From the NCBI RefSeq assembly GCF_000328685.1, contig NC_019974.1:1107001-1171000 (forward strand): a DNA stretch of 64,000 nucleotides. The letters run 5' to 3'. The notes under the pieces are model-generated. The model was given only the letters and a program-made list of their open reading frames with translations. It was not told the origin of the DNA and did no database searches. Numbering within the stretch: position 1 is the stretch's first letter; each line of letters opens with the position of its first letter. This DNA comes from Natronococcus occultus SP4. GTDB lineage: Archaea; Halobacteriota; Halobacteria; Halobacteriales; Natrialbaceae. Position numbers and translations under genes: made by a program. Positions 6,884 to 25,793 of this stretch are shown here, piece after piece.

Positions 6884-6946
6884 CGTGATCGACGCTTGCG
6901 GCTGAGACCACACGACAGCCCAATTACCTAAAATCAGGCGCTAAGG

Positions 6947-7005
6947 CCCCGTCCTCAAGGAGCAACGCAGGGAGCGAAGCGACCGAGTAGCGCAGTAGGG
7001 CGGGG
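6947..7005 (+). repeat. Left-end imperfect hairpin of the TnpB element
   Basis: Arms CCCCGTCCT (6947-6955) and AGGGCGGGG (6997-7005) pair with one mismatch around a loop that repeats short GCGAAGCGACCGAG-like pieces. It mirrors the right-end hairpin in stem sequence and in the CTCAAGGAGC motif. This fits the subterminal hairpins of IS200/IS605 elements. Confidence 0.6.
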
Positions 7006-7070
7006 ATACAGCGCCGTCATCGTCTCACATACACCCTGCAACGACCGGCCCACAGGCCTACCGACGCGTT

Positions 7071-7077
7071 TATCAGT
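7071..7077 (+). promoter_or_regulatory. Box A for the DUF2080-tnpB transcript
   Basis: TTTATCA lies 25-31 nt before the ATG at 7102, the spacing expected for a leaderless transcript of the DUF2080 and tnpB genes. Confidence 0.5.
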
Positions 7078-7101
7078 TCCGACAATGTATCTACATCGTA
7101 C

Positions 7102-7245
7102 ATGGAACAGTTCACAATCAACGGCCACGAAGTCGTGGACGGCGACGTGAAAGCCACAGGTAACGGCGCTCACGTCTACGTCCCGAAACGCTGGCGTGGC
7201 GCGGACGTGAAAGTCGTCCGTACTTCTGACCCCGACGACGAATAG
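7102..7245 (+). CDS. DUF2080 transposon-associated protein
   Basis: A 47-aa protein (MEQFTINGHEVVDG...YVPKRWRGADVKVV...DDE) that matches the DUF2080 family, found in archaea directly before tnpB. It has a short beta-rich body resembling swapped-hairpin DNA-binding proteins (phrase AHVYVPKRW). Its TAG stop abuts the tnpB ATG, so the two are probably translated from one mRNA. Possibly a regulator or DNA-end binding accessory; its role is not established. Confidence 0.8.
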   Translation: MEQFTINGHEVVDGDVKATGNGAHVYVPKRWRGADVKVVRTSDPDDE

Positions 7246-8478
7246 ATGAACTACAACTACAGGTATCAGCTAAACCCGTCTGACGACCTCCGCGAGCGAT
7301 TCGCATGGACTGTCGATACCTGTAGGCAGGTCTACAACCATTTCCTCCACCGCCTCAACCGCCACGACGATACGTCGTCGTCGTACTCCGAGCAGAAGCG
7401 TCTGCCGGACCTGAAAGACTGGTGGAATGACCTGCGAGACGTTCACTCGAAGGTGTTGCAGAAAGTCGTTCAGCGGTTGTACGACAACCTCTCGACGCTC
7501 AACAGCCGGAAGCAGAACGGCTACAGCGTCGGGGAGTTGAAGTGGAAAGCACCGGGCGAGTACCAATCGTTCACCTACAGCCAGTCCGGCTTCAAACTCA
7601 AAAACACGAGTGGTCGGACCCGACTGTGGCTCTCGAAGATTGGTGACATTCCCATTACTTTCCACCGCGACCTGCCCGACGACGCCACCATCAAGACCGT
7701 CACTGTCAAACGCGAACCCACCGGCAAGTGGTACGCCATCCTCGGCGTCGAAACCCCCGACGACCCACCCGAGAAGCCCGACGAGGTGACTGACGCTGTT
7801 GGTATCGACGTGGGTATCCTAAAATACGTCCACGACAGCGACGGGACCGCCGTCGAGTCGCCTGACCTTTCCGACGAACGCGAGCGGTTAGAACGCGCCC
7901 AACGTAACCTCTCGCGGAAGGAACACGGCTCGAACAATTGGGAGGAACAGCGCAAGACGGTCGCTCGACGCCACGCTGACCTGAAGCGCAAGCGTCGAGA
8001 CTTCTTGCACAAACTCTCGGCGTACTACGCCCGCGAGTACGACCTTGTCGCGGTCGAGGACTTGGATACGAAAGGACTGGTTGAGCTTCCGGGCAACTCT
8101 CGGAGCCGCGCCGGGGCCTCGTGGGGGATGTTCCTGCGAATGCTCGAATACAAGTGCGAGCGGGAAGGAACGTACTTCGTCGCCGTGGACCCCCGAGGCA
8201 CGACCAAAGAGTGCGCGTCATGTGGCGTCGAGACGGACAAGCCGTTGTGGGTACGCAAGCATTCGTGTCCGTCGTGTGGGTTCGAGGCAGACAGAGACGC
8301 GAATGCGTCGTGGAACATCCTTTCTCGCGGTCTCGAACAAGTAGGGGCGGGCTGTCCCGAATCAACGCCTGTGGAGACTGCGCTCCCTACGGGAACCCAT
8401 TCGGTTCCTGCAAAGCGCGTCATCGAAGCAGGAAGCCCCACCCTCAAGGAGCGAACCGCGTCAGCGGTGAGCGAGTAG
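7246..8478 (+). CDS. tnpB: RNA-guided endonuclease TnpB (IS1341-type)
   Basis: A 410-aa TnpB, the ancestor-like relative of Cas12. In characterised members it is an RNA-guided DNA nuclease that helps retain the element. The RuvC acidic residues are visible: D188 in GIDVGILK, E271 in VAVEDLD and D351 in DRDANASWN. A zinc ribbon (CASCG...CPSCG) lies between the last two. The reading frame is intact and all three catalytic residues are present, so activity is plausible. The stop codon TAG (8476-8478) lies inside the 3' arm of the right-end hairpin. The C-terminus therefore overlaps the region that in related systems forms the guide (omega) RNA scaffold. Confidence 0.93.
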   Translation: MNYNYRYQLNPSDDLRERFAWTVDTCRQVYNHFLHRLNRHDDTSSSYSEQKRLPDLKDWWNDLRDVHSKVLQKVVQRLYDNLSTLNSRKQNGYSVGELKWKAPGEYQSFTYSQSGFKLKNTSGRTRLWLSKIGDIPITFHRDLPDDATIKTVTVKREPTGKWYAILGVETPDDPPEKPDEVTDAVGIDVGILKYVHDSDGTAVESPDLSDERERLERAQRNLSRKEHGSNNWEEQRKTVARRHADLKRKRRDFLHKLSAYYAREYDLVAVEDLDTKGLVELPGNSRSRAGASWGMFLRMLEYKCEREGTYFVAVDPRGTTKECASCGVETDKPLWVRKHSCPSCGFEADRDANASWNILSRGLEQVGAGCPESTPVETALPTGTHSVPAKRVIEAGSPTLKERTASAVSE

Positions 8479-8485
8479 GGTGGGG
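8436..8485 (+). ncRNA. Right-end hairpin, likely omega-RNA 3' scaffold
   Basis: Perfect 9-bp arms CCCCACCCT (8436-8444) and AGGGTGGGG (8477-8485) enclose a second hairpin (ACCGC-GTCA-GCGGT). In TnpB systems the guide RNA scaffold comes from the 3' end of tnpB and ends at the transposon right end, with the guide read from flanking DNA. The guide would then begin near 8490. The structure is seen; that it is transcribed and bound by TnpB is inferred. Confidence 0.5.
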
Positions 8486-8552
8486 AGGAAGTCACCGTCC
8501 GTGGAGGGCATGAATCGTCCAGCTCGGCAACGCAAACACCCGTTGCTGTAAG

Positions 8553-11500
8553 TCAGACGTCGGTCCAGGACGTCTCCAAGCCGCCGTTCTCGTTGGCATC
8601 ATCCTCGCTGTCGTGCTCTTCCGACTGCTGTTCAGGATCCGGCTGAGGCTCTGGCGTTTCGGGCGCAGGTGCGGGTTCCTCAGGTTCCCGAAGCGGCTCC
8701 ACGTCCGGCGAACCGTCGCTTTCGTCGTCAGCAATCCTCGCGTCAGACTTAGGCATACCAGTCTCAACGCTACCGGTCGAGCCATCTAGCCAGGCCTCGA
8801 TCGGAATCGCCTCTTCGGAATCGACGTCAAACATGAGCAGCTCAGTCTCACCCTCGAGGTCACGGTCGTCGTTCGGCACAATAGCGATCCGGAACGCCTC
8901 GGGATCAGGAACCGAATCGTGGCCGTACTCGCGGAACATCGCCTCGGGAATCACGGGCTCGTAGATATACGTCCACTCGTCGGTGAGAGGGCTCTTCGCA
9001 CCGTACTTCCGTTCGACGTCGCCGTCACGTTCAACGACGTAGTTGGTGTCCTCGGGATCGTAGTGAACAGTCGCCGGCGCGTCGCTGGGATCGCGCTTCC
9101 GGTAGTCCTCGGGCCCATCGAACCGAAGGTAGGTCTCGTCGGTGTCCCGGTCGCGACAGACAATCGTTCCGTCCTCAAGCTCGACCCACTTTGTTGAAGC
9201 GTCGCCTGGGACAATCGCGAGCTTCTCAATACCGGTATCGTCACCGGACAGCTCGAGCTGCCCACGAGTGTAGAACTTCCGGGCGACTCCTGTCGGTGTC
9301 CGTACCGATACAAACGGATCGCTACCGTCGGCACCGAAGATTGACGCAAGGCGCTCGGCGTTGTTCGTCAGCCCATCGTCGCCACCGTCACCGACGACGA
9401 AAAGCAGCTGTTCGGGACTCGGGGCCTTCGCCGCGTTCTTGATCGGGCCGCCGGGCTTCGAGAGTCCCTTCGACTCCGCTTCAATATACAATGTATCCGT
9501 TCCCGAGAGCTCGAGGACGTCGGGGTACTCTTCTTCAAGGCGCGAGCGAGCGATCTGCTCGCGCTCGTCGTCCGAGAGGTCGCCATCAGGGACGATCGAT
9601 GGCGGGACCTCACCGACCGCGTCGGGTAACTCATCACCGTCTTGGGTCGGTAACTGCATCTCGTACCCAGACCGTGTCCCCCACTCGTAGACCTCACGAA
9701 GCATATGTCGGTGCTTGCTCTTCCCGCCTGATCCACCCGAGCCAGTCTCGAGACCGATCTGACCGCGACCCTCGGGTGTAACCGTGATCTCCAGCCCATC
9801 GCTCGTACTCCGCTGCTCGAGAGCACCAACCGCCTCAAGCCGTTCAACGATATTCGAGGCCTGCGTATACTCGAGGCCAGTTGCGTCGGTCACTGCCTGC
9901 TCTGCGGCGGGTGTCTCGACCGAGTCAGACTTGGCACGGATCGTCTCGTCGTAGATCGCCTTCAGCGCTGTCTGAGCAGCTTCGACGTCGTCGACATCCA
10001 TCGGTTCCTCGACGTCCGCTTCGGTGTTCTCACGGCCAGCTGCGTCGGCTGCCTCCGACTGTCCAGTGCCGGTAAAGAACAGATCGTCCAGGACCTCCCG
10101 CCCGGACTGGCGTTCGATCCCATAGCGTTCGGTCGACTGTTGGATCAGCTCGAACGCGTCCTCGATCGAGTGCAGCGGCGGGTATGGTGGCGTCAGTTTC
10201 GCCATGAACGAGTCGTCCTCATGACGCAGCTTCGTTTGAGCGTGATAGTCGGGAATCTGTGTCAGGTCCTGTGGATCCTTCCCGCCGAACCGATCGGACA
10301 ACGCTCGAGCTTCGTCGGGTAACAGCGGATTCAGCGAAACTAGCGTGTTACAGTTCGAGAGAATCGCCTGTTGAGCCTCGGCATCCAACTGATGGAGCGT
10401 CTGTGTCGCCAACAGCAATCCAAGCTTCTTCGACCGGGCTTTCGTGAGCATCTTGTCGATCTGTGACGCCTCAGTGAGGACGTCGTCACACTCGTCGATC
10501 ATCAGGAAGTACGGGTCGTAATCCCCGCCGGAGGTGTTCGCCCCTGCAAGCTCGCGAACCTTCTTCTCCGAGGGATTGATCCGGTCGTTCACACAGGTCC
10601 AGACGCGGCGCATGACCGCCGTCGCGACCATCCGCTTTGCTTCACCCGGAAGGTCGTTCTTGCAGATGATGATCTTGCCCTCGTTGACTGCCTCCGCGAT
10701 CGAGACATCGGACTCACGTTGAGCGAGAATCTGGCGCGTGATCGGATTCTCTACCCAGTCCTTTAGCCGACCGACGAGTGCGTCGAGCTCTTGCTCAGTC
10801 AACTCCTCAGCGATCTGTCGCGTGTAGACCTCGAGGAACGCGATGTCATCGTCGTCAGCCGACGCAATGAGATCCGCATACTGTCTCCGATTTTCCTCGT
10901 CAAGCAACGCGTAGTATAGCTCGAGTGGCGTGAACTCGAACTCGTGGCGAATCATCCCTCGGACCATCGTCTTCATCACACGGTCCATCCGGTTCCCCCA
11001 GAAGTCGCCAGCCTTCAACAGCTCCTTGAAGTCGTCGACGATCCCCTCGATCTCCTCGTCGAACCCAGTCTCGTCGGGATCGTGGTAGGTCTCGAAGAGG
11101 TTGAACCCGACCGACTTGTCCAGGAAGTCGTCTCCCGGTGCGATGTAGATCACATCGTCCCAGCGGTCTTCCGGCACCCGCCGAAGCAGATCGTAGATAT
11201 CGTCACCCTTCGGATCGATGATCGTGACGCCGTGGCCGCCGTACATCAATGCGACGGCGTCGTTGTACATCTTCGTCGTCTTTCCGGTCCCAGTTGAGCC
11301 ACCGTAGAAGACGTGTCGAAAGAGTCGATCAAACTCGACCGGCACCTCGCGACCGGAGCTCTCCGAAACGCCGATCCAGAGTGGCTGTCGAGGTTTGGCT
11401 TGTGCGTTCTCGATCATCGCTCGAGGCCACGCGCCGGCGTAGGTTTCGACCTCTTCTTCGACCGGATCGTAGCGTTGTATGGCCCACTCCTTGTTGTTAA

Positions 11501-11600
11501 TCAAAACGGGACTTTTCGGGTCGTCCTCGCCCTCGATCCGAGCGCCAAATTTCTCGAGCTCTTCGACTGGTTCGCCGTCGTCACCGAATGGAAGACTCAT
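8553..11600 (-). CDS. VirD4/TraG-like coupling ATPase of a conjugative element
   Basis: A 1015-aa P-loop ATPase, last gene of the transfer operon. Walker A is GGSTGTGKTTKM (K107). A conserved block IIDPKGDDIYDLLRR follows. Walker B is FLMIDECDDV (D369, E370), and LLATQTLHQL is a sensor-like motif. This order is typical of TraG/VirD4-type coupling proteins and related archaeal HerA/FtsK-like ATPases that feed DNA into a secretion channel. No N-terminal membrane span is present. A winged-helix-like segment lies near 560-620, a domain of unknown type at about 640-930, and a Pro/Glu-rich disordered tail at the end. It starts one base after the preceding gene's stop, so translation is probably coupled. 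Exact role is inferred from motifs and context. Confidence 0.8.
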   Translation of the reverse strand: MSLPFGDDGEPVEELEKFGARIEGEDDPKSPVLINNKEWAIQRYDPVEEEVETYAGAWPRAMIENAQAKPRQPLWIGVSESSGREVPVEFDRLFRHVFYGGSTGTGKTTKMYNDAVALMYGGHGVTIIDPKGDDIYDLLRRVPEDRWDDVIYIAPGDDFLDKSVGFNLFETYHDPDETGFDEEIEGIVDDFKELLKAGDFWGNRMDRVMKTMVRGMIRHEFEFTPLELYYALLDEENRRQYADLIASADDDDIAFLEVYTRQIAEELTEQELDALVGRLKDWVENPITRQILAQRESDVSIAEAVNEGKIIICKNDLPGEAKRMVATAVMRRVWTCVNDRINPSEKKVRELAGANTSGGDYDPYFLMIDECDDVLTEASQIDKMLTKARSKKLGLLLATQTLHQLDAEAQQAILSNCNTLVSLNPLLPDEARALSDRFGGKDPQDLTQIPDYHAQTKLRHEDDSFMAKLTPPYPPLHSIEDAFELIQQSTERYGIERQSGREVLDDLFFTGTGQSEAADAAGRENTEADVEEPMDVDDVEAAQTALKAIYDETIRAKSDSVETPAAEQAVTDATGLEYTQASNIVERLEAVGALEQRSTSDGLEITVTPEGRGQIGLETGSGGSGGKSKHRHMLREVYEWGTRSGYEMQLPTQDGDELPDAVGEVPPSIVPDGDLSDDEREQIARSRLEEEYPDVLELSGTDTLYIEAESKGLSKPGGPIKNAAKAPSPEQLLFVVGDGGDDGLTNNAERLASIFGADGSDPFVSVRTPTGVARKFYTRGQLELSGDDTGIEKLAIVPGDASTKWVELEDGTIVCRDRDTDETYLRFDGPEDYRKRDPSDAPATVHYDPEDTNYVVERDGDVERKYGAKSPLTDEWTYIYEPVIPEAMFREYGHDSVPDPEAFRIAIVPNDDRDLEGETELLMFDVDSEEAIPIEAWLDGSTGSVETGMPKSDARIADDESDGSPDVEPLREPEEPAPAPETPEPQPDPEQQSEEHDSEDDANENGGLETSWTDV

Positions 11601-11601
11601 G

Positions 11602-12954
11602 CTATGCGGACACCTCCTGCTCTCGCTCAGAGCCGCGGTCGTCTAGTTCGCGATCGTCATCGGACTCCTGGCGACCGGCGTCGACTCCCAAATCGTCGTA
11701 CTCCTCGGGATCGGTCCAGGTCGCCGGGATGTCGTACTCCCAGTGGTCGGCGTCCTCGAACTCGACCGACCGACGCTCCTTCTCCCAGGGAACCACCCCA
11801 GCGTCGTGGAACTCCGAAAACCGTGGCGCGTTCGCCGGGACGTCGCCGGCGTGAGACGTCAGCGACCAGTCGACGTCCTGCGTGTTGATATCGTCGTTCG
11901 GGATATGGATCAGCCCCGCAGCGCCGCGGACACCCATGATCATCTTCCGATCGGCCCGAACGCGCCCGTAGGCTCGCTTCAACTCGGCCAGCAGTGGCTT
12001 GTCGTATAGCGGAACGACCTCGAAGCCTTGCTCGGTCTTGCTCTCGTAGTAGCCGTCGAACTGTTGGGCCGTCTCGGCAACGCGCTGTACCGCCGACTCG
12101 GGATCATCAGAAACACCGATGATCCGCAGGTTCAGCCGGAATCCCTTCTCGCCGCGCTGTTCGCGAACGATGTTTGAGGCCTGCTTGTCCTTGTTCGACG
12201 CCTCCCGCTCCTCCCCGACGATTTCGTACTTCTCGGGGAACAACTCGTACTTGAGTGCATGGAGGAACGACTCGTCTTTCCGCGGACTCTTGAGCTCGTC
12301 AGCGATATCGTCAATCGAAGACGACAACAACCCGCCCTTCCACCAGTCGGCCGGGGCCGGCTCGAAGATCGTCTGCACGGAGAGATCAGTCTCGGTATCC
12401 GACTCCCGCTCGCCAATCATCTCCGCGGTGATCGAGCCGTAGGGGTCGTTCTCGAACCCCTCGATGTCCATGTGCTTGATCGGATACAGGTGCTTCCCAT
12501 CCGACCGCTTCCGGAGCCGAAGGTAGGCACCGGCAACGTAGCGTCCCTCTTCCAGCGGCAACAACGCCGGCCGGTCGTGCTCTGATACATCAATGTGAGC
12601 ATCAGGGTAGAACGTCTCGAGCTGGCGCTGCATCTGCTTCTGGGCCTCGGTCGTCGCCATCACCCACTGGAAGCCGACCAGGCCGTTGATGTAGCGCATC
12701 TCAAAGGAATGAGTCGGCCCATCAGCCGATCCGAGGACGCCGCCGCGACCGGGGTTGTGGACGGCCGTCAGCAAGTCGATCGCGTCCTTCGGCCCGCCGC
12801 CGTCTTTGCTCGGTTGCACCGCGATCGACTTGCGTTCCGGGAGCTCGCCGTACAGCTGCTCAATCAGCTCCGGCGTAACCTCGAGAGCCTCGTAGCCGTC
12901 GCCAAGACCGAGCTTCTGCTTCGTGGCACACACGGTCCGCTTGCCAAGCCCCAT
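11602..12954 (-). CDS. Probable N-terminal half of a split coupling protein
   Basis: A 450-aa soluble acidic protein with no P-loop. The part FEMRYINGLVGFQWVMATTEAQKQMQRQLETFYPDAHID resembles the region that precedes the ATPase domain in single-chain TraD/VirD4-like proteins (a probe of the type 'FxxxVPxxxxxxxxxQLYAxYPDAEI'). This is family-level pattern recognition. It overlaps the preceding gene by one base (TGATG) and ends one base before the ATPase, so the two products are likely made together. I infer a two-subunit coupling protein. A DNA-binding or relaxosome role is possible; no relaxase motif (HUH, catalytic Tyr) is seen. Confidence 0.6.
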   Translation of the reverse strand: MGLGKRTVCATKQKLGLGDGYEALEVTPELIEQLYGELPERKSIAVQPSKDGGGPKDAIDLLTAVHNPGRGGVLGSADGPTHSFEMRYINGLVGFQWVMATTEAQKQMQRQLETFYPDAHIDVSEHDRPALLPLEEGRYVAGAYLRLRKRSDGKHLYPIKHMDIEGFENDPYGSITAEMIGERESDTETDLSVQTIFEPAPADWWKGGLLSSSIDDIADELKSPRKDESFLHALKYELFPEKYEIVGEEREASNKDKQASNIVREQRGEKGFRLNLRIIGVSDDPESAVQRVAETAQQFDGYYESKTEQGFEVVPLYDKPLLAELKRAYGRVRADRKMIMGVRGAAGLIHIPNDDINTQDVDWSLTSHAGDVPANAPRFSEFHDAGVVPWEKERRSVEFEDADHWEYDIPATWTDPEEYDDLGVDAGRQESDDDRELDDRGSEREQEVSA

Positions 12955-13232
12955 CAGACATCACCTCCGCGAAGGTGCTCGGCAAGCGACCACGGGAGAT
13001 CACGGACAACGAGCCCAATCACGGCGATGAGACCGATAACATAGAGGCCAACCAGCGTGCGGATGACGTTCCGCAGTCCGGTTTCATAGACCTGCACGGT
13101 CGGACCAGAATGCACACCCGTGTAGAGCAGTGCCCCACACACGGCGAGCACAGCGGCGCTAATCCCAACGACAAACCCGGCTGCGTATCTCGTATCCGGT
13201 CTGATCTGGATCGAATCAAGAGTGCCCCACAT
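12954..13232 (-). CDS. Small two-span membrane protein of the transfer operon
   Basis: A 92-aa protein with two predicted membrane helices (YAAGFVVGISAAVLAVCGAL and LVGLYVIGLIAVIGLVV) and short charged ends. The start MWGTLDSIQI at 13232 overlaps the VirB4-like gene's stop by one base (TGATG), matching the next junction; an alternative in-frame start at 13241 is less economical. A small membrane partner is common in conjugation operons. No family is recognised. Confidence 0.7.
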   Translation of the reverse strand: MWGTLDSIQIRPDTRYAAGFVVGISAAVLAVCGALLYTGVHSGPTVQVYETGLRNVIRTLVGLYVIGLIAVIGLVVRDLPWSLAEHLRGGDV

Positions 13233-16200
13233 CAGGACCACCTCCAGTCACAGATGTCGTCGTACTGCTGTAGATACGACTTGTAGTCCTCGCCGTGCTC
13301 GGATGGATCGTACATCAGCGCGACCGCCTCTCGCGGGTTCTGATCGTGGTCCATCCGGACGCGACCAGGGTAACAACCCTCGTCATCAACCCGGAGCAGC
13401 ACCTCGGAGAACCCATCAGCAAGATTCCCTTTTTGGAGGTTGTCGATCAGCTCCGCTTCATCACTCGAGAGCCCCAGCCGCTTGCCCCACTGCTCGTTCA
13501 TCCCCTCTACGTACTGGTAGAGCTCCATCGACGAGAGTTCGAGCATGACCTCAGCATTATCCGTCAGATGGACATTGCCCTCGCCGTCGGTGCCGAAGAA
13601 GTCCTTATGGCTCTGTGTGCCGGCGCCAATCGACAGATCCCAGTGGCGGTGGTGGCGGTACTTCTGTGACAGCGACTTCACCGTCATGTCGTCACGCAGC
13701 AGGTAGTGGAACTCGTCGGCGAAGATCATCCCCGGTTCCGGGCGCGCTTTGACCTCATTGTACAGCAGGTCCAGCAACAGGTGCATCATGAGCCCGCCGC
13801 CCTCTTCGTCACCCTCCTTGAGCTGCAGGTCGGCGTAGACGAAGTCCGTGTCCTCGAGATCGACCTCCGTTTGGTGAGCGAGGTGCTCCAGGTGGCCGCC
13901 CTCGCGGAACGGCTCGACGTGGTTGTTGATCACCGTCGTCGCCTTCTCCTCGCGATCACGGACCTGGCTCTCGTTGTCGGGGTCTTCGACGTACTCGGCG
14001 CCGTCGCTCGACATCTCATTGACGATCTCCATGACGTCGGTCATGGTCGGCGGCTCGCCATCGTAGCCCTCCTGGCGACGGTACTCGGGGTCGTGGGTCT
14101 TCGGATCCTCAGTGATCCCCTTCTCACGGCCCGCCTGCTTGAGCGCCTTCGTCCAAATCGCCCGGTACTCCGAGAAGTCGAATCCCTGCATCTTGTAGTA
14201 GAGCTCGAGGAAGTCAAGTCCCGAGTCAAGCCACTCACGGTACGGGGCCTCGTGGCCGATCGCGTCGAGCTTATCCTCCGGCGTCGGCTTGATGTCGAAC
14301 GGGTTGATGTACGTCGACCCGACGACGATCCGCTCGCCGCCGAAGATCTCCTGCAAATTAGCGAACTCCTGGAGCGGATCGATCACCGCCACGAACGAAT
14401 CGGGGTTGTCGACCTTGTAGCGCCAGAGGTACTGGCTCGAAGTCACAGTCTTGCCGGCGCCGGTCTTACCGACGATCACCCAATTGTACCCCGCGTCACG
14501 TTTGTACACGTCGACAGCCAGCGGTTCGTTGGTCGCCATGTTCTCGGCGATCTCCACGCCAGAGGGCTCGTGGAGGTTCGTCGTCGTCCACGGGTTCATC
14601 GCCGCCAGCGCCTCGGATCGGACCTTCACCTTCTGATCGACCCGATCCTGACACGCCGGCGCGATTGTCTGGTGGCCGATATCGTGGTTCTGCCGGAGGA
14701 CCGAGACCTTCGCGCTCATGTCCGACATCTTCGCTCGAATCGAGCGGATCGCCCGCTTGAGCGCATCCGGGTTGAACGATCGGACCTCGATATAGGTTTG
14801 GGCTTCGAACATGTCGTGCTCGCTCTGCAAATACGAGTCAAGTGCCGCCTGCGTCTCATCCGCCTCATCCCGGTACCGGCTCGCGAACATCTCTACCCGC
14901 GAGTCCTTGACCCGCTCGTACTTCTTTCGGAGCGCGTCGGCGTAGTCCTCGAGCTCCTGCTCGGCCCTGTCCTGGTCGACAGTCTCGATGTGGGTCGCAA
15001 CGTTCGTCTGAACCTCAGCGTCATCGAACTGGAGAATCGGTTCGAGGAACCCTTCGGGTGGATCCTTCGGGTAGCTCGAGATGAACAGCGTTGCTGCGTA
15101 GACCTCGCCGTCGATTTGGAGGTGATCACCACCGCCGTTCATCCAGGAGCGCTCGATCTCTTCGGGAGCCAGCAGCGAGATGTACTGTTCTTCGAGTTCT
15201 TCATCGGTCAGCGCGATGTCAGCACTGCCCGGACTCTCTGCCGGTGCCGGGTCGTGCGATACCGAGGACGTCGGTTCGTCAGCCGCCACGCCCCCGTCGG
15301 TAGCAGCCTCGGACCGCTCAGGCGAGGACTCTGCCGAGGGATCCGGACCGGTGTTCTCTGCGTGCTGATCGGCGATCGCGAGCTGATTGTGGCGCCGCGA
15401 CAACGTCGTCCGCGGGTCGCGATCGGCTTCAACATCCAGATGAGCGTAGGTCACGTCGTACTCCGGATCGGACACCTCGCCGGTTTCGACGCCGTCCTCA
15501 GTGACCTGTGGCGTCGGAATCGGGTTCTGCCGGACCAGCGACGTGTAGTCCGCGTGGGCGTAGGCATTGGCTGCCTGGTAGTGATCCGCCGCCACCTGCG
15601 ACAGTTCTTCACTCGGGATTGGGTGTCCGCTGACGTCCTCGAGGCGCCGGATCGAATCACTGATCGTGTCGAGTCGGTCCTCGAGGAGCTCGATCATCTG
15701 CGGGATATGCTCGCCCGCTTGCTTGAGCTGGTGGACCTTCCAGTGGGTGTAGAAACGGCCGACGATCGGGACCGACGTCAGCCCACCTTCGACATCGTCC
15801 TCGGTCACCACGTCACCTGGCTCGACCTCCACGATCAGGTAAGGATCGACAGTGTACGTCGACAGATCGTACATCGAGACGACGTCGGCTCGCTCTCGAC
15901 AGAGATCCGCGAGCAGCTTCTTCCCGAAGTCGAGCTCGGTGTAGTCGACCTCGCCAGGCGGAGCTTCGCCATCGGCGGTCGTGACGATTGCCTCTTCGCG
16001 CTGGGTGTAGCGCTCGATCCGAGGCGTGTAGTCGACCATCCGCATGTACTCGGCGATCTGAATATTCCCTTTGACCGCTGTATCGAGCACTTTCGCGTAG
16101 AAGCGCGACTGTCGCTCCCACTCCTCTTCGCTCGAGGTCACCATGTTCGCCGGCGAAATACGCAACGCGCCGACCACACGACCTTCGTCGGTCTCGACTG

Positions 16201-16705
16201 CCGGCGTCCCATGGTAGGCTTTCGTAAACTGGACAAAATCCTGACTTCGTACTGGACCCTCTGATCTGTCATCTGGAGAATCTGGACCGCGGACTGACGA
16301 CAGCAATCGAAGCCCTGCAAGGGGAATTGACGCTGCCGCCCCGAGCAGCGAGTCGTTCGTTGGCTGTTCAATACCAGAATCATCGGGGTTCCTATCGAAG
16401 AGCATGATTGGCTGTTGTGAAAACGATCGGAGGACTGTCTCGGCGTAGAACTGAGCGGTCATCCAGGGATCCTTCGCGACGATAAAGCCGAAGCCGGCGA
16501 TTAGCCAGGCGAACGCCACGAGGTAGGTAAGCGTCCCCAGCGTGCCGCCGATCAGCTGCCGGCCGACGAACCAGATCATCGCCGGCGGCGCGACCGCCGC
16601 GAGGACTTCCATCTTGCTCATCCCGAGGACGACCTGATCGCTCGTCCCGGTGTGGATTACTTTGTGGTCGATACCATCCGAATCGCTGGTACTGTTGTCG
16701 CTCAT
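13232..16705 (-). CDS. VirB3-VirB4-like conjugation ATPase
   Basis: A 1157-aa ATPase expected to power pilus or channel assembly. Residues about 30-75 hold two membrane helices in a VirB3-like arrangement (VLGMSKMEVLAAVAPPAMIW...). A long VirB4-type N-terminal region follows, interrupted by an acidic disordered insert near 450-500 (ESSPERSEAATDGGVAADEP). The ATPase core has Walker A VIVGKTGAGKT (K752) and Walker B MIFADEFHYLL (D997, E998). VirB3-VirB4 fusions are known in bacterial type IV secretion systems. The gene overlaps its upstream neighbour by ATGA. It fits VirB4/TraC better than HerA because of the membrane N-terminus and operon context. Confidence 0.8.
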   Translation of the reverse strand: MSDNSTSDSDGIDHKVIHTGTSDQVVLGMSKMEVLAAVAPPAMIWFVGRQLIGGTLGTLTYLVAFAWLIAGFGFIVAKDPWMTAQFYAETVLRSFSQQPIMLFDRNPDDSGIEQPTNDSLLGAAASIPLAGLRLLSSVRGPDSPDDRSEGPVRSQDFVQFTKAYHGTPAVETDEGRVVGALRISPANMVTSSEEEWERQSRFYAKVLDTAVKGNIQIAEYMRMVDYTPRIERYTQREEAIVTTADGEAPPGEVDYTELDFGKKLLADLCRERADVVSMYDLSTYTVDPYLIVEVEPGDVVTEDDVEGGLTSVPIVGRFYTHWKVHQLKQAGEHIPQMIELLEDRLDTISDSIRRLEDVSGHPIPSEELSQVAADHYQAANAYAHADYTSLVRQNPIPTPQVTEDGVETGEVSDPEYDVTYAHLDVEADRDPRTTLSRRHNQLAIADQHAENTGPDPSAESSPERSEAATDGGVAADEPTSSVSHDPAPAESPGSADIALTDEELEEQYISLLAPEEIERSWMNGGGDHLQIDGEVYAATLFISSYPKDPPEGFLEPILQFDDAEVQTNVATHIETVDQDRAEQELEDYADALRKKYERVKDSRVEMFASRYRDEADETQAALDSYLQSEHDMFEAQTYIEVRSFNPDALKRAIRSIRAKMSDMSAKVSVLRQNHDIGHQTIAPACQDRVDQKVKVRSEALAAMNPWTTTNLHEPSGVEIAENMATNEPLAVDVYKRDAGYNWVIVGKTGAGKTVTSSQYLWRYKVDNPDSFVAVIDPLQEFANLQEIFGGERIVVGSTYINPFDIKPTPEDKLDAIGHEAPYREWLDSGLDFLELYYKMQGFDFSEYRAIWTKALKQAGREKGITEDPKTHDPEYRRQEGYDGEPPTMTDVMEIVNEMSSDGAEYVEDPDNESQVRDREEKATTVINNHVEPFREGGHLEHLAHQTEVDLEDTDFVYADLQLKEGDEEGGGLMMHLLLDLLYNEVKARPEPGMIFADEFHYLLRDDMTVKSLSQKYRHHRHWDLSIGAGTQSHKDFFGTDGEGNVHLTDNAEVMLELSSMELYQYVEGMNEQWGKRLGLSSDEAELIDNLQKGNLADGFSEVLLRVDDEGCYPGRVRMDHDQNPREAVALMYDPSEHGEDYKSYLQQYDDICDWRWS

Positions 16706-18447
16706 TTGCGGTAGTGGTCTAACTGCTGACGGGCCCGGCTAGCCTGCTTCGCGTTCCGAGCGCGATTTTCTCTCTGTTTCGCCGCTTTTCGACGCTGGTT
16801 CGGCGTGACGCCGGTCCCGTCTGTCGAGTTCGGGGGAGATCGCGACGACGTCCTCGAGGTCGACGTTGAGCCCGACTCCGAGGACTGACCGCCGTCGGTC
16901 CGAATCGGTCGACGAGAGTTGACAGACGATTTCGCGCGCTGTGCTGCCGCCTTCGACCGGTTCGCCGCTGCGGCGCCAGCCTTCGACCCACCACGCTTGA
17001 GACGTTCCTTTGCCGATCGAGTCCGGTCGCCGCCGAAGACCGACGCCGGACGCGGCGAGGGTGCGTACTTCGAGATCGCCGAGGACGCGGTCCCGACCGC
17101 AGCCCCACGCATCGAGAGGCCGATCAGGAAGAACGACCCGCTCACTGCGAACGGGATCATGACCGCAAGCGCGAAGATCCCGAGCGTAGCGACGAAGTTG
17201 AGCAGGTCCCACGGAAAGAGCTGCCAGCCAACGGCGTTTGCGAACGCGAGCAGCACCGCTGTCGGAATGTTCATGACCAGCAGGCCGTACCACTGCCAGA
17301 TGAAGAACGAACCGACCTGCTTCACCCGACGGTGGCCGCCCCAGTAGGCCAGGATGAAGAATATCGGCAACACGGCCGGGTAGACGAACAGGAGGACGTG
17401 CCGAGTCGCGTGGATCAACGCCAGGGAAGCGCCACCGACCCAGCCCTTGAAATACAGGATCAACGCACTCGCCACGCCACCGGAGTACGTCGTCACCTCG
17501 GAGTCAAGGACGTCCTCGCCGTCCGGGAGGAACAGCTGTGTCGCTGCGTCGCTCAGCGCGTGCAGCAGCGTCGCGAACTCCCAGATTGCGACAATCATCA
17601 GGACGACGAAGACCCCCGACGCGAGTATCGAGCCGACCTTCCGGCGTGTAATCGCTGTGACCGCTGGAGCGACCAGCATCAACAGCGCCAGGAGGAACAT
17701 GATCGACATCGCCATCGGCATAACCAGCCCGAGGTAGATCTCTTCGTAGACCGTCACGTAGTTCTCCGACGCGAAAGCGTCGTATTGGCCGGCCTCCGTG
17801 TTCGCCGGCGTCTGCTCACCTTCCTCGATGGCTTCCGGCGTGCCGAGGATTCCGAAGGCGCCGTCGTTGTTGATCGTCGGTGTCCCGAGTGCCTGGTTGA
17901 AGACCTCCTCGACGAACATCGTCATAGCCGACGCGAACATCTCGGTCAGCCGCTCCCAGACTTGCTCGGCAGCGTCGGCAGGGTTCAGCGCGCTACTCGC
18001 GGTGTCCCCGATCGTGTCGGTGATCCCGCCACCTAGGGGCGATCGGCTGTCGCCTTCCAGTTGCTCCTGTGCTTCGGAGAGCTCCTGGTATTCCTCCGGC
18101 GTGATCGTACCGTTCTCGAGATCGTCCTGAGTGACGCCGTCGACTGACTCTACGGCTTCAGGATCGAACCCGTCGCCATCGGTCTCGTTCTCCTCGAGGC
18201 TGACGTCGTCACTGGGACCGAAGTCCGAATCACCCGATGCACCAGTTTCATCGTCTTCGTCGTCGGCCTCGTCGGTATCGTTCCCTGGCGGACTCCAGAC
18301 ACTCACATCCTCGTCATCGACGTCCTCGGTCTGGAGTACCACACCGTCCGGCGCCAGGCCGGCGTCAGCAGCAGCGAGGCCTGGTACAGCGAGTGCTCCC
18401 GCAGTACACAGCACTGCGACAACGAGGATGATTCGGAGAAGTTTCAT
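16702..18447 (-). CDS. Secreted-start polytopic membrane protein, VirB6/TrbL-like
   Basis: A 581-aa protein with a clear signal peptide (MKLLRIILVVAVLCTAGALA) and an acidic extracellular stretch rich in D/E (about 40-140). Six or so membrane helices follow at about 240-455 (for example MSIMFLLALLMLVAPAV, LLFVYPAVLPIFFILAY, LGIFALAVMIPFAV). A basic Ser/Arg/Lys-rich cytosolic tail ends the protein. This layout matches channel-forming VirB6/TrbL-type proteins, although primary sequence similarity was not tested. It overlaps the ATPase start by ATGA and begins 12 nt after the preceding stop. Role as transfer-channel component is inferred from context. Confidence 0.65.
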   Translation of the reverse strand: MKLLRIILVVAVLCTAGALAVPGLAAADAGLAPDGVVLQTEDVDDEDVSVWSPPGNDTDEADDEDDETGASGDSDFGPSDDVSLEENETDGDGFDPEAVESVDGVTQDDLENGTITPEEYQELSEAQEQLEGDSRSPLGGGITDTIGDTASSALNPADAAEQVWERLTEMFASAMTMFVEEVFNQALGTPTINNDGAFGILGTPEAIEEGEQTPANTEAGQYDAFASENYVTVYEEIYLGLVMPMAMSIMFLLALLMLVAPAVTAITRRKVGSILASGVFVVLMIVAIWEFATLLHALSDAATQLFLPDGEDVLDSEVTTYSGGVASALILYFKGWVGGASLALIHATRHVLLFVYPAVLPIFFILAYWGGHRRVKQVGSFFIWQWYGLLVMNIPTAVLLAFANAVGWQLFPWDLLNFVATLGIFALAVMIPFAVSGSFFLIGLSMRGAAVGTASSAISKYAPSPRPASVFGGDRTRSAKERLKRGGSKAGAAAANRSKAAAQRAKSSVNSRRPIRTDGGQSSESGSTSTSRTSSRSPPNSTDGTGVTPNQRRKAAKQRENRARNAKQASRARQQLDHYRK

Positions 18448-18459
18448 GGAGTTAAAGAG

Positions 18460-18837
18460 TTAGACGAACGGCGAGCAGCCCTCTCCGACGCCGGGACCGT
18501 CGGCGTAACCGAGAGCGATGTCGATAAACTGGACGAAAAAGATGAACGCAATCACACCGACGATCGGGCCGACCATCATCAGGCTCCCAACCGCCGTCGA
18601 TCCAGTGAACAGCGGGACCGCCCGGAGGACGAGTCCGAGCATGAAGATCACGAACAGCGCCCCGAGCAGGACTTGCCAGGCCATCATCTGGACGTCGAAG
18701 ATCATGAGCCCAAAGCCCTCCCCACAGATGTCCGTCCCATCGTCCTGTGCCGCCACCGACTGGGAAGCGACCAGCGAGACGGCCCCCATGAGGACCGTCG
18801 CTCGAACCGGTGTGAGCAGTCGGCGGTGAATCGCCAT
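18460..18837 (-). CDS. Small exported membrane protein, pilin-like (VirB2-like)
   Basis: From the start MAIHRRLLTP the product is 125 aa. It has a signal peptide ending near SVAAQ, then two hydrophobic helices (WQVLLGALFVIFMLGLVL and VGSLMMVGPIVGVIAFIFFV) joined by a short loop. Cysteines flank the helices (DICGEG near 50 and GEGCSPF at the end). A two-helix core after a signal peptide is the VirB2/TraC pilin layout. A longer frame starting at 18978 (172 aa) would bury the signal peptide, so 18837 is preferred. It is the first gene of the transfer operon. Confidence 0.6.
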   Translation of the reverse strand: MAIHRRLLTPVRATVLMGAVSLVASQSVAAQDDGTDICGEGFGLMIFDVQMMAWQVLLGALFVIFMLGLVLRAVPLFTGSTAVGSLMMVGPIVGVIAFIFFVQFIDIALGYADGPGVGEGCSPFV

Positions 18838-19045
18838 TGCCGACCTCTGGCTCTGGTTTTCTCTGAGTTCCTCGAGTTCCAAACGACTCTCGTGGGCCGA
18901 CCGCAGGACCCACAGCAAGAGCTTCTGCAACAGTATACGATTCTTACTAGCATCCGAATCAGGTGTGTGTCCAGTCATCGTCTTCCTAACCGATGAAGCC
19001 CCACAGGTATAACCCATCTCAAAGCACGTCATTAGTGAGGCTTCT

Positions 19046-19120
19046 CTAGTTGTTATTCGATCTTAGACAATAAATCCATCCCTCATTGGCACCGCTTCAA
19101 CAACTAGTCTTTTATATAAT
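19046..19120. promoter_or_regulatory. Inverted repeat and TATA box between divergent operons
   Basis: Perfect 9-bp inverted repeat: CTAGTTGTT (19046-19054) and AACAACTAG (19099-19107). It is followed at once by TTTATATAAT (19111-19120). The region separates the minus-strand transfer operon from the plus-strand small regulator. A repressor of the element could bind here; that is inference from position and symmetry. Confidence 0.45.
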
Positions 19121-19195
19121 AAGAGTCAACTCAGCGTATCCTGGTATGCACCATAGCAAATTCTCACCCTCATCCATTGGGTACAGGAAAGTACT

Positions 19196-19495
19196 ATGAC
19201 GAGCACTGACAACGAAGACGATCTCAAATCGGTTAACATCGAGGTCCCGGGTGCCGAGAAGAAGCGATACGTCTCAGTCGACATGCCTCGCGATCAGTAC
19301 GAGCGGCTCGACGAACTCAAGAGTCGGAACGGACTCACTTGGCGCGGGCTTCTTATGCATACCCTCCGCAGCCTCGGTTCGTTAGAACCCGACGGGGGGA
19401 GTCAGTACGAACAACTGAACGAGACACGGCAGCGCCACGGATTTACCTGGAAGGGGATGCTCCTGTACGCTGCTCGCGATCTCGAAGACAACTGA
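19196..19495 (+). CDS. Small protein with internal duplication, putative element regulator
   Basis: A 99-aa acidic protein. Two copies of a ~27-residue unit are visible: QYERLDELKSRNGLTWRGLL and QYEQLNETRQRHGFTWKGML. The first part (SVNIEVPGAEKKRYVSVDMP) looks like the beta-strand of a ribbon-helix-helix protein, and each unit like a helix-turn-helix pair. A DNA-binding regulator of the adjacent transfer operon is plausible. It is divergent from that operon across the inverted repeat at 19046-19107. No named family recognised with certainty. Confidence 0.7.
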   Translation: MTSTDNEDDLKSVNIEVPGAEKKRYVSVDMPRDQYERLDELKSRNGLTWRGLLMHTLRSLGSLEPDGGSQYEQLNETRQRHGFTWKGMLLYAARDLEDN

Positions 19496-19514
19496 CCAGC
19501 ACTCTCTTCCGACA

Positions 19515-19760
19515 CTACGAGAGGCCGAACCCGACACCGAGGATCAGGAGAACCATCCAAATTACGCCCCCTGAGACACGCCGGAGCGCACCGTGGTTAT
19601 GTGGATCCCCACTGAGAACCCAGATAGCCACACCGCCTGCAGTGAGGGTGAGCGCTGAAAGAAGTTCGGATGACACAAACGCTGCGTAGGCGGCGAGGAA
19701 CGTCAGCACTGCGGTGAACCTCGCAGCAGCGGCGTTAGATCGTGTGAGTAGTCCTGGCAT
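19515..19760 (-). CDS. Small hydrophobic membrane protein
   Basis: An 81-aa protein with two to three predicted membrane helices (FTAVLTFLAAYAAFV, LLSALTLTAGGVAIWVL, GGVIWMVLLILGVGFGL). It converges with the small regulator, 19 nt apart. No family recognised; surface exclusion or a transfer accessory role cannot be distinguished. Confidence 0.6.
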   Translation of the reverse strand: MPGLLTRSNAAAARFTAVLTFLAAYAAFVSSELLSALTLTAGGVAIWVLSGDPHNHGALRRVSGGVIWMVLLILGVGFGLS

Positions 19761-19995
19761 TTTCTATGACCCACAGTATAGTCTCACTCTATAAAGATAT
19801 TTTCCACACAGAGAGCTAACAGTAGATAGTAGCACGATCGCTTTAGGATGTGAATCTGAACTGGTCGGTTTGTTACGTGCAGATGCGCACCTCACTTCTA
19901 GTAGTTAACAATACTAGTAGAGATTACTGCAAGTTTTAATTAGAACGGATGACTCTTAGACCTGAATCTTCTCATGTATAGATGGACTTGTCACT

Positions 19996-22857
19996 ATGAA
20001 GAGTTCACGGCGTGAGGTTCTTGGTACTATTACGACAGCAGGAGTTGTGGGGTACGTATCACGAAGTAACACTGCTTCCCAAGAGGAGACAAATCAGAAA
20101 ATTGGTTTTCCACTGGAATTTGCATGGGACACAGAATTTAGTGGCGTATCACATCACGTCAGTCGTTCTGAGGAAACGGTGTTTGTTGGAGTTGGCAGGG
20201 AGTCTATCGATGATCAGATCATCGCGCTTGATTTGATGTCAGGGAGGGAACAGTGGACAATTGACGTGTCCTCTATAGTTGGTACTCCGATTTATGATTC
20301 CGACAGTAACTACGTCTTCACTTCTGTCGGTAATGCTGTTGCTGCGTACGATTACGACACACAGGAGCAGGTCTGGCAAACTCAGCTTCAATACGAAACT
20401 ACATATTACATAGTTCATCCTTTCGAAGATTTCGTGCTTGCGGAAAATTACGAGATTGATACACTGGGAAGGGACCGGTACGAGTACAGACATAGCCAAC
20501 TTGTTGCACTTGACAAATCGACCGGGGAAATCAAGTGGCGTATCGAGAGCCAAACACGGTTGATTCTAGTTGGAGAAACCGATGATACGCTTTATTTGAG
20601 CCAGGGCGCGGACGTGTTTGAGACTGATCCGTATCAGCCTCTTGAACTGACACCAGAAATCACTGCCCTCGACAAGGAGACTAAAGATGAACGGTGGACA
20701 AGCCCCCCGCTTGAGGACTTTGAAACCATCCTAGATGGTTTTGACCAAGGAATCGTCTGGTTGGCTACTAATGGTCGTGCCTCAGCCCTTGACAGCCAGA
20801 CTGGTGACACCTACTGGGAAACTCAACTCACGCCTGCCACTCCATCATCTGTTGGGCAAGCCGGACCATATGGATTTGTTCTAGATGAGTCTGATACCAT
20901 CACCGCTTTTGCAGCTAGTGATGGAGAGATTGTGTGGCAACAGTCATACGAGGAAAGTAGTGGCCAGTTCGCGGTCACAGAGGATACGCTAATCAATCAA
21001 ACAGATAGCGGATTTCAGTGCATTGATACAGTGACGGGCGAGGTGATTGATACCTATAGTATCGTTGGGCCGGTAGAAACGGTCTATGGAGACGTCGAGA
21101 CGGTTGCAGTTCAAACAGAAAGTGGTATTCATCTGTATCATGGGCAGCGATACCTGACAGATTCTGCACTAGACGATGCACGGGGTATTGGTCTTTTGCA
21201 CGGATCAGTCCTAGCCACTGTATCTGGATATGGAGAAAAACTTACCGCGGCGGAAATCGCGTTTGAAGAACGACAATACTCACGCGCACAGGAGCTTGCA
21301 GAGTCGGCAGAACGCCGAGGTCGACTCATCACCGGTGGGGCAGGGATAGCAGTTCTAGGGCTTATTGGAAGCATTGGTGCTGGCACCTATCGCCATCTTC
21401 AACGACGGAAGTACTGGAATCAGATTCAGACCGACTACGAAACTACGGTCAAGAAAGCCGTCACCCTCCAAGATACACTCCCTGAGTATAGCGATGCGGT
21501 AGAACATCGGATTGAGGACGGGGCCCCAGACCAGTATGAATCACTCGATGATGCCCGTCAGGCTGTCACTGACCTCGACAGATTTCTCGAGGTACTCGAC
21601 AACTACGCAACTGTCAGAGACCAGATAACTGAATTGCAGAAGAGCACCGACTGTGATATCTGGTACGTCATCAACCAAGAAGAGAGACTCACTGTGGAAC
21701 CATCGACACCAGTCATTGGTCTGGACCAGGATGTCGATCGACTGCAAACCATCGTCGAGGCTACCGCCGAAACTCTCCGGCAGAAAACAAAGGTCGAACA
21801 ACAGGCCGCAGAGGTCGGTAGTGCTGCTGACGACTACGACTGGATGTCGGCAGTAGATCAGGCTGAGCAGGCGCTTCGAGAAGGGGATTTGGACCAGATA
21901 CGGGATGCACAGGAATCGCTCTCGACAATTAACACGACGCTGGAGATGATTGAGCAGCGACAGCAGTTGGTCGCCCGAATTGACTCCGAAGGCCGGGTCG
22001 CAGGAATCAATCAACTACAGCTCCAGAACCGCATCGAAGCAGAGCCGTATCCAGCTGATGTATCGGGGGCGGTTGACCGAATGGAAATCTACGATGACCT
22101 GGTTACATGTATCGAACGGATAGCGGTAGTTGTCCGGTGGGAAAGCAGGGTGGCAACAGATGATATTGTTGATAATATTAACAGTCAAATAGAGAAAAAT
22201 GAACCGGACTCAGATCTGCAAGCGAAGATCGCCGAACAAGTCAACGAACTTGAAACGCTTCGCGAAGCAGCTACTCAAGCCTACGATGCTCTCGACGATC
22301 TTTGTTCGGCACAGGATAGTCAGCAGACAACCCCTGAGGTAAATGAGCTAGAAACGGAGTTACACAAGGCGCTTGTGGCGGGGGATGCCGAACAGGTAGA
22401 CGACATCAGTAAACGCCTCCAGTCTATGGTAGATGCGACGTGGGAACTTAACGATGTGATCGAATTTGACTGGCAGGAATTCGAGAACTTAGTCGCCCGG
22501 CTGTACGAAGACAAAGGATATGACACGAGAGTGACTCAGCGGGCAGATGACCGGGGTATCGACATCATCGCAGAAAATGGACAAAATCAGCTTATCATTC
22601 AGGCTAAACGCCATAGTTTCGGGAATAACGTGGGGCGTCCTACTGTTCAAAAAACAATAGGGGCATTATCCGGAACCTCTGCTAATATGGCCGTTATTGT
22701 CACGACTGCGGGGTTCACTCAATCCGCGAAAGAAGAAGCTGGGCGTCACATAGGACGTATCAAACTGGTGAACGGGCCACAGTTGATAAGTGAATTAAAC
22801 AAATCACATCTGACACCGGTTGCCTACGAAACTCTACAGTCTGACGGCCTGCCATGA
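19996..22857 (+). CDS. Tat-signal PQQ-propeller / membrane span / Mrr nuclease fusion
   Basis: A 953-aa protein. Residues 1-30 carry a Tat-like signal (SSRREVLG then a short hydrophobic stretch). Residues about 40-430 are PQQ/BamB-like propeller blades, with repeats ending like ALDLMSGREQW, ALDKSTGEIKW, ALDSQTGDTYW and AASDGEIVW. One membrane span lies at 444-468 (LITGGAGIAVLGLIGSIGAG), followed by basic RHLQRRK, so the C-terminal side is predicted inside. Residues about 475-820 are helical/coiled-coil. Residues 823-940 are an Mrr-type restriction endonuclease domain: FENLVARLYEDKGY, D856 in GIDII, Q869/K871 in IIQAKR, MAVIVTTAGFT. The gene is visibly more A/T-rich than the transfer operon, suggesting separate origin. 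Mrr proteins cut modified DNA; a membrane-anchored form with an outside sensor is not a family I know. Function is inferred only. Confidence 0.85.
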   Translation: MKSSRREVLGTITTAGVVGYVSRSNTASQEETNQKIGFPLEFAWDTEFSGVSHHVSRSEETVFVGVGRESIDDQIIALDLMSGREQWTIDVSSIVGTPIYDSDSNYVFTSVGNAVAAYDYDTQEQVWQTQLQYETTYYIVHPFEDFVLAENYEIDTLGRDRYEYRHSQLVALDKSTGEIKWRIESQTRLILVGETDDTLYLSQGADVFETDPYQPLELTPEITALDKETKDERWTSPPLEDFETILDGFDQGIVWLATNGRASALDSQTGDTYWETQLTPATPSSVGQAGPYGFVLDESDTITAFAASDGEIVWQQSYEESSGQFAVTEDTLINQTDSGFQCIDTVTGEVIDTYSIVGPVETVYGDVETVAVQTESGIHLYHGQRYLTDSALDDARGIGLLHGSVLATVSGYGEKLTAAEIAFEERQYSRAQELAESAERRGRLITGGAGIAVLGLIGSIGAGTYRHLQRRKYWNQIQTDYETTVKKAVTLQDTLPEYSDAVEHRIEDGAPDQYESLDDARQAVTDLDRFLEVLDNYATVRDQITELQKSTDCDIWYVINQEERLTVEPSTPVIGLDQDVDRLQTIVEATAETLRQKTKVEQQAAEVGSAADDYDWMSAVDQAEQALREGDLDQIRDAQESLSTINTTLEMIEQRQQLVARIDSEGRVAGINQLQLQNRIEAEPYPADVSGAVDRMEIYDDLVTCIERIAVVVRWESRVATDDIVDNINSQIEKNEPDSDLQAKIAEQVNELETLREAATQAYDALDDLCSAQDSQQTTPEVNELETELHKALVAGDAEQVDDISKRLQSMVDATWELNDVIEFDWQEFENLVARLYEDKGYDTRVTQRADDRGIDIIAENGQNQLIIQAKRHSFGNNVGRPTVQKTIGALSGTSANMAVIVTTAGFTQSAKEEAGRHIGRIKLVNGPQLISELNKSHLTPVAYETLQSDGLP

Positions 22858-23276
22858 TTAGTTTCATGTTTCTCTATTCAGGAGGGTGTTCTTAACAAAT
22901 TCTATATATATAGATTAATTATCAATTATCTGCTTGCCCTGTACGGAACGATTGCTCGACTAATCTGGTCGGTACACCTCAATGGCTGTGTTATGTAGGA
23001 TTGCGAACCTAACGATGTGTGTTTACAGAAAAGACAGGCTAAGTGCCTCGGGGCCTGACTCCGAGAGGTTCGCAGCCTTGGCTTAGTCACACCCGTTGTG
23101 AGGACGAAGGTGAACGCGACCGCCGAATCTGTGTTATTCACACTGCTACTACTTCTGAAACAGGAGGCTCCTCCTCATAGTTGTCACTAGAAGAGACAGC
23201 GACGTCGACTGGGAAGTCGACGACCAGGTTCGCTCGTGTCTGTCTTCCTCTCTTATTGGGGCCTATCTTGTCGTTC
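22858..23276. other. Intergenic region with a probable TnpB-element 3' relic
   Basis: No intact gene. On the minus strand, 23072-23043 reads GAACCTCTCGGAGTC...CCCCGAGGCAC, a hairpin (CTCGG/CCGAG) in the position and style of IS1341 right ends. The open frame just before it (near 23141-23040) resembles a decayed TnpB C-terminus. Relic status is tentative. Confidence 0.35.
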
Positions 23277-24098: not shown

Positions 24099-24249
24099 CG
24101 AGTTAGTGATCGCGAAAAATCGCTGTACGAACGATACGCGTCGCTGTGCGGCCACTGTGGTCGGTCGGCTTGGCAGCCGGGACTCCGGACACGGTGGAGT
24201 CCCTCCACTCGCGGGCTGCTGGCGGAGTGACCGACATTGAGTGCCGTGC

Positions 24250-24768: not shown

Positions 24769-25079
24769 TAGTCGTGGCCTCCGTGGAAGCGGGTGACCAG
24801 TTCGAGACGGGCCCGTGGAATCGGTGCGATAATGAGTTCCGAAACGCTGGGCGCCGTTGGATTGGGGTAGGCGACCCGGAGGATTTCGCTGGTGGGGTCG
24901 TACTCGGGGTGGACGTCGGCACTGGTCGCGGGCCCCATCCCGATCGGGTACTCGTTGGCGGGGATCTCCGTGTGTTCGAGGACGAGCAGCGTCTGGGTGG
25001 GCATCTCGCGATCGCGGACGTGGTCGCCGACGCGCAGGCGCGGGCGGTCGTCCGGCGTGGTGGTGTCGCTCGAGGCCAT
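24768..25079 (-). CDS. Hypothetical protein of the element module
   Basis: A 103-aa protein (MASSDTTTPDDRPRLRVGDHV...). It has a beta-rich pattern with LRVGDHVRDREMPTQTLLVLE resembling a small SH3-like or DUF-type barrel. It abuts the upstream gene (stop at 25080-25082, start at 25079) and overlaps the downstream one by one base. This suggests the three small genes form one operon. No function can be assigned. Confidence 0.7.
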   Translation of the reverse strand: MASSDTTTPDDRPRLRVGDHVRDREMPTQTLLVLEHTEIPANEYPIGMGPATSADVHPEYDPTSEILRVAYPNPTAPSVSELIIAPIPRARLELVTRFHGGHD

Positions 25080-25682: not shown

Positions 25683-25793
25683 TCGGCTTTATTGAAATCA
25701 TTCACTATTAATATCAAAAATAAATAATTTCCATCACTCTCAAGAAAGCAGTTGGGATCAGCTACTATACGCAGATATCCCTTCGAAGACCTT

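Follow-up and report, generated by a model that had tools for sequence, protein, structure and literature searches.

The 64,000-nucleotide stretch of the Natronococcus occultus SP4 genome studied here (the window; NC_019974.1, positions 1,107,001 to 1,171,000, part of contig C1 in a genome of 4.31 Mb and three contigs) carries a minus-strand run of six open reading frames (ORFs), designated F, E, D, C, B and A in reading direction, at window positions 8553-18978 (Table 1). Judged from its sequence, this operon is genuine and conserved and belongs to a known kind of machine; its coupling ATPase is split, and it encodes no recognisable relaxase. It is probably a compact, conjugation-type type IV secretion system (T4SS) of a haloarchaeal branch, borne on an island that would be an integrated plasmid of ~148 kb and served by a relaxase in trans or by an unrecognised enzyme, and its function would lie in DNA transfer.

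Two of the six products are P-loop ATPases in which both the Walker A and Walker B motifs are intact, and profile matches bore out their assignment, made in a preliminary description of this DNA, as VirB4-like (D) and VirD4/TraG-like (A). D was matched by the VirB4-like NCBIfam models conju_CD1110 (6.8e-36) and VirB4_plasma (5.8e-35), both under the models' strict cut-offs, and by the PDB sequence of a VirB4-like solved structure, 4ag5 (9e-7). The N terminus of D may be VirB3-like. A exceeded the Pfam cut-offs for PF12696 (TraG-D_C, 5.9e-8) and PF10412 (TrwB_AAD_bind, 7.5e-8), and reached 1.8e-10 against a TraD model, below the cut-off of that model. Gene B, for which Pfam gave no match, has its counterpart in Haladaptatus halobius within a single protein of 1221 residues, where residues 42-389 of B align to 52-392 and residues 61-736 of A to 403-1053. 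Because B is fused N-terminal to A in that organism, B and A together read as a split coupling ATPase.

The arrangement is not a chance one, because the gene order, C excepted, recurs in related loci and dN/dS (the ratio of nonsynonymous to synonymous substitution rates) is low. Thirteen related loci (L002-L013 and L015, the last from Haladaptatus halobius) were compared, and L014, which belongs to a more distant group, stands outside this count. The order is shared with loci of Natronococcus, which holds the closest relatives of the operon, and of Natrononativus, Halalkalicoccus and Haladaptatus, with all genes except C found in the same sequence. D is followed by B and A in each of the 11 loci that extend beyond D; the two genes are adjacent in nine, separated by an insert of ~1 kb in L006 and fused in L015. 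E lies upstream of D in 12 of the 13 (L005 starts too near D), and an F homologue precedes E in 11, the copy in L013 being clearly divergent (23%). In pairwise comparison with L002, dN/dS came to 0.055 in A, B and D alike, to 0.125 in F and to 0.133 in E, and the operon genes are by this sequence measure under purifying selection. With five candidates scored per genome, relatives of D at E <= 1e-30 were found in 80 of 125 genomes of the family and in 24 of its 29 genera, and matches at E <= 1e-100 in just eight of the 125. Comparable operons also sit on complete plasmids.

The genes are closely packed, with a 1-nt gap between B and A, a 1-nt overlap of C and B, a 4-nt overlap of E and D, and an overlap of D and C of 1 nt if C starts at its ATG or 10 nt if it starts at the GTG. 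The preliminary description of six linked minus-strand genes spaced by 1-4 nt was therefore right about the linkage and about the spacing except between F and E, which are 12 nt apart. The outer end that it gave, 18837, has to be moved: this is an in-frame ATG within F, and the region upstream of it is conserved in relatives (55% identity over 47 codons), so the start of F is likely 18978.

The same description had proposed a polytopic and a pilin-like partner for the ATPases, and the layouts of E and F agreed with this, but no curated-family profile was found for either. By hydropathy, E has a signal-like N terminus and then about five more hydrophobic segments. F has a long conserved leader, a signal-peptidase-like SQSVAAQ motif, two hydrophobic helices and a conserved pair of cysteines in the mature part, a layout that I take to be that of VirB2-like pilins. 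Gene C was present in Natronococcus occultus SP4 alone among the loci examined, and the ~277 extra nt that it occupies at the D/B junction are missing from all ten unfused related loci; it may be an entry-exclusion protein. Pfam and NCBIfam profile scans gave no match to the VirB1 or VirB8 families within the operon.

Table 1. Features of the operon and of the insertion that carries it (window numbering)
Feature	Position	Strand	Basis or remark
Insertion, ~149.5 kb	6921 to ~156486 (C1 ~1263486); 6921..64000 inside window		empty sites
Left TnpB insertion sequence	6921..8502	+	tnpB 7246-8478
Gene A, VirD4/TraG-class coupling ATPase, 1015 aa	8553..11600	-	no hydrophobic segment by hydropathy
Gene B, N-terminal partner of coupling ATPase, 450 aa	11602..12954	-	adjoins A; fused in L015
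Gene C, two-helix membrane protein, 92 aa (95 aa from GTG 13241)	12954..13232	-	D/B junction
Gene D, VirB4-class ATPase, 1157 aa, hydrophobic segment at N terminus	13232..16705	-	NCBIfam, PDB, pNG500 matches
Gene E, VirB6-like polytopic membrane protein, 581 aa	16702..18447	-	hydropathy; pNG500 profile match
Gene F, pilin-like precursor	18460..18978	-	further in-frame ATGs at 19032 and 18837
Divergent gene, 99 aa, candidate regulator	19196..19495	+	ribbon-helix-helix-like, weak: RHH_1 E 0.16, below cut-off
Tyrosine recombinase, integrase family	25818..26990	+	PF00589 6e-14
Right TnpB insertion sequence, direct copy	154907-156486 (beyond window)	same orientation as left	

Among the closest known systems is plasmid pNG500 of Haloarcula marismortui, reported as conjugative by Guglielmini et al. 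2011 (PMC3158045), which has a run of pilin, VirB6-like protein, VirB4, two small genes, relaxase and coupling protein. Its VirB4 matched D at E 5.5e-60 across 882 columns, and the gene immediately ahead of virB4 matched E in a profile comparison (probability 95.7, E 8.8e-9), so that homologous VirB4 and VirB6-like genes stand in the same order, with an annotated pilin upstream. The two systems differ after virB4, where pNG500 has the two small genes, the relaxase and a coupling protein with a strong TrwB match, and the window has C, B and A and no relaxase; the pNG500 pilin candidate and F do not match each other either. Among broader classes, the operon resembles MPF_FATA (firmicutes, actinobacteria, tenericutes, archaea) in its reduced set of parts and in that D is nearest to the VirB4 NCBIfam models of CD1110-type and Mbov_0397-type integrative and conjugative elements (ICEs), a likeness by profile match only. 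It departs from that class in giving no VirB1 or VirB8 match and in having a coupling ATPase that is split and has no hydrophobic anchor. Thermococcus pT33-3 and the Sulfolobus conjugative plasmids likewise have VirB4 and VirD4 homologues and no identified relaxase, as described in PMC12857230; few T4SS homologues besides these two are named there, and the window adds VirB6-like and pilin-like genes.

The operon lies on an insertion that is absent from all six relatives compared (G003-G008): their sites are empty, the DNA between 6904 and ~156478 being missing, and the junction was resolved to within tens of bases in two of the six. GC content drops from ~0.67 outside to mostly 0.45-0.62 inside, with a richer stretch near 64-72 kb. 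The insertion ends in two direct copies of a TnpB insertion sequence that are 99.1% identical across 1584 bp; the genome has no other full-length, near-identical copy, only a partial one (98%). Ends of exactly this kind are what recombination of a plasmid with a TnpB copy in the chromosome would produce, and two separate insertions of the same element, one per end, would be a less economical explanation. The replication and partition region of the insertion matched 203 plasmid records, and those among the matches listed that have an annotation are labelled orc1/cdc6 or ParA. Orc1/Cdc6- and ParA-like genes together with direct repeats at both ends are the features sought in an integrated plasmid, and the island is, on this sequence evidence, a probable plasmid integrated in the chromosome. 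Two inverted related segments within it (23073-24781 and 138799-140501, 73% identical) suggest a mosaic assembled from more than one plasmid-like unit.

Of relaxase profiles, PF03432 and PF08751 had no match in the Natronococcus occultus SP4 genome, a motif scan of the proteins predicted on the island found no histidine patterns like those of relaxases, and Pfam recognised no relaxase among ten further island proteins. A profile built from nine relaxases gave a best E of 0.12 against 2642 six-frame ORFs from 184 kb, a search by which divergent relaxases could be missed. B was also considered as a relaxase and ruled out, since in L015 the fused coupling ATPase has B as its N-terminal half, and B gave no useful relaxase match. 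The preliminary statement that no relaxase was found thus holds for island and genome, but it drew too broad a contrast with bacteria, given that relaxases do occur on plasmids of haloarchaea. Within the genus, PF03432 was found in one of nine genomes (G006) and PF08751 in none of the nine. The G006 relaxase, of 183 aa, has a small DNA-binding-like gene ahead of it and an ATPase-like ORF behind it. Used as a query it retrieved six of the 125 family genomes, one at 6.3e-4 and the other five at E <= 1e-27, Natronococcus occultus SP4 not among them, and 27 places on 22 plasmids, all haloarchaeal and including pNG500; of these relaxase-positive plasmids, PLSDB types 21 as non-mobilizable.

Nine of these relaxase loci were fetched, and all have the conserved tyrosine, with an HxH motif in seven and HxQ in two; PF03432 was over its cut-off in six of the eight relaxases scanned and under it in L094 and L096. 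In seven of the nine, the gene that comes next downstream bears the annotation T4SS DNA-binding protein; in L079 it is unannotated, and in L096 the record ends there. A haloarchaeal relaxase cassette can be described from these loci (L079:768-1319, L087:8384-8905, L090-L096), consisting of a small DNA-binding-like gene, a MobA/VirD2-type relaxase and a T4SS DNA-binding ATPase. The small gene may be MobC-like. On plasmid 2 of Halalkalicoccus jeotgali such a relaxase occurs together with an operon like that of the window, and the coupling gene downstream of this relaxase is annotated as two overlapping ORFs. Archaeal conjugative plasmids are said to have no recognisable relaxases, in the accounts given in PMC9905601 and PMC12857230, and the archaeal VirB4 genes reported earlier were numerous and frequently accompanied by a coupling protein, with very few relaxases (PMC3158045). 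The cassette, as read from these sequences, qualifies the claim that archaeal conjugative plasmids have no relaxase.

In a conjugation-type system of this composition, F would supply the pilus or a cell-contact piece, and E together with the N-terminal membrane part of D would form the pore. D would drive assembly and transport, and the B and A pair would pass DNA to the pore. The DNA would be processed by relaxases of co-resident plasmids acting in trans, or by an unrecognised enzyme. Homologous recombination between TnpB copies would have brought the ~148 kb plasmid into the chromosome and could release it again.

Several observations weigh against this reading. Neither island nor genome has a recognisable relaxase, and of 12 plasmids on which the best place spans 80% or more of D, 11 are absent from the 22 relaxase-positive plasmids, the exception being Halalkalicoccus jeotgali plasmid 2. 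Thirteen homologues of E gave no convincing Pfam match and a search with E of the PDB sequences returned chance matches only, and the pilin name of F comes with no match to a family profile or a PDB sequence. AlphaFold models, at a predicted local distance difference test (pLDDT) score of 29.4 for B (5 sequences) and 45.5 for E (9 sequences), were too weak for use. Lastly, proteobacterial systems without a relaxase (MOB-less) have been argued to be mostly protein exporters (PMC3158045).

One way to account for the missing relaxase keeps DNA as the substrate. B and A may be the two subunits of a coupling ATPase that lacks a membrane anchor and loads DNA into the pore with no relaxase involved, giving relaxase-independent conjugation, possibly of double-stranded or host-cut DNA; this is a tentative proposal to which I give a minor share of the probability. 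The proteobacterial precedent, and the lack of any relaxase found in the genome, would instead suit a relaxase-less T4SS that exports proteins, such as effectors or toxins, to neighbouring cells and not DNA. Protein export is nevertheless unlikely, with the operon found on plasmid-like DNA and on plasmids, and with the pNG500 relatives of D and E standing beside a relaxase and a coupling protein. No conserved effector-like neighbour gene was recognised, and a weakly beta-helix-like gene lies near the operon in six related loci. This gene, encoding a protein of ~440 aa upstream of the operon (L003:5543-6862, L004, L007, L009, L012 and, partially, L002), reached E 0.48 for the beta-helix match, below cut-off, and has no homologue in the Natronococcus occultus island.

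A DNA-import machine like the archaeal Ced and Ted systems would have in common with the operon a reduced set of VirB2-, VirB6- and VirB4-like parts without a relaxase (PMC9905601). Such a role is quite improbable here: a VirD4-class ATPase is present in the window and in all related loci that reach it, the composition of Ced as given in that paper names none, and the operon sits on a plasmid-like insertion, not at a conserved chromosomal locus.

The preliminary description had attributed the operon to an integrative element together with an integrase, placed at 25854. The mobile nature of the DNA is supported, but the integrase as its mechanism is not, the ends being TnpB copies. The tyrosine recombinase on the insertion does look intact, which would suit an integrase-driven ICE, and fusexin-bearing haloarchaeal integrated elements, as described in PMC9259645, combine a XerC/D recombinase, VirB4 and TraG/VirD4 on insertions of >50 kb. 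The present insertion differs from those elements in its ends, which are TnpB copies and not attachment repeats of an integrase; the one 11-mer that the two examined junction regions have in common as a direct repeat is part of the TnpB copies. The integrase is moreover absent from the examined flanks of all 13 related operon loci, although in two relatives it is found on one contig with genes of the operon, as a broken copy ~10 kb off and as a 57%-identical copy ~42 kb off. An integrase-driven ICE is accordingly very doubtful.

A repair-type HerA ATPase system or a viral packaging module is extremely improbable: D does reach 17.8 bits against DUF87/HerA (cut-off 23.2) and its relative in L013 passes with 27.4, as expected because the ATPase core is shared, but VirB4 profiles fit D far better, A has TraG/TrwB domains, none of the operon genes was recognised as NurA-like (B, E and F having no Pfam match), no capsid gene turned up in the DNA searched, and two alignment-based scans of 2.9 million viral contigs found no relatives of D or B. 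The placement of the ATPases in HerA or packaging families, which had been named beforehand as the outcome that would overturn the transfer assignment, was thus not observed, with the HerA match below cut-off and the viral scans empty.

Other genes of the island were noted in passing. The small divergent gene beside F recurs in eight of the nine related loci that reach that far upstream. A 953-aa protein (19996-22857) begins with a PQQ/beta-propeller part and, after a middle region, ends in an Mrr restriction-endonuclease domain (1.5e-28). A 1415-aa protein (29317-33564), lying beside a 505-aa protein (27442-28959) without a significant Pfam match, has methyltransferase-like motifs, and I take it to resemble restriction-modification enzymes. 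Two related large proteins on opposite strands (48573-50552 and 61086-63173; 64.8% DNA identity over 1027 bp) are presumably similar to copper amine oxidases. A ThiC-type gene (7.4e-189) lies within the insertion and adjoins the right TnpB copy (window 153493-154917; L041:9493-10917).

How archaeal conjugation starts without a relaxase is described as an open question in a recent review (PMC12857230). The operon makes a small and conserved set of genes available in a genus that has cultured members, and the relaxase-bearing operon of pNG500 can be set against relaxase-less operons that have VirB4 and VirB6-like parts in common with it. The choice between a relaxase acting in trans and a relaxase-free mechanism becomes testable in laboratory strains of haloarchaea.

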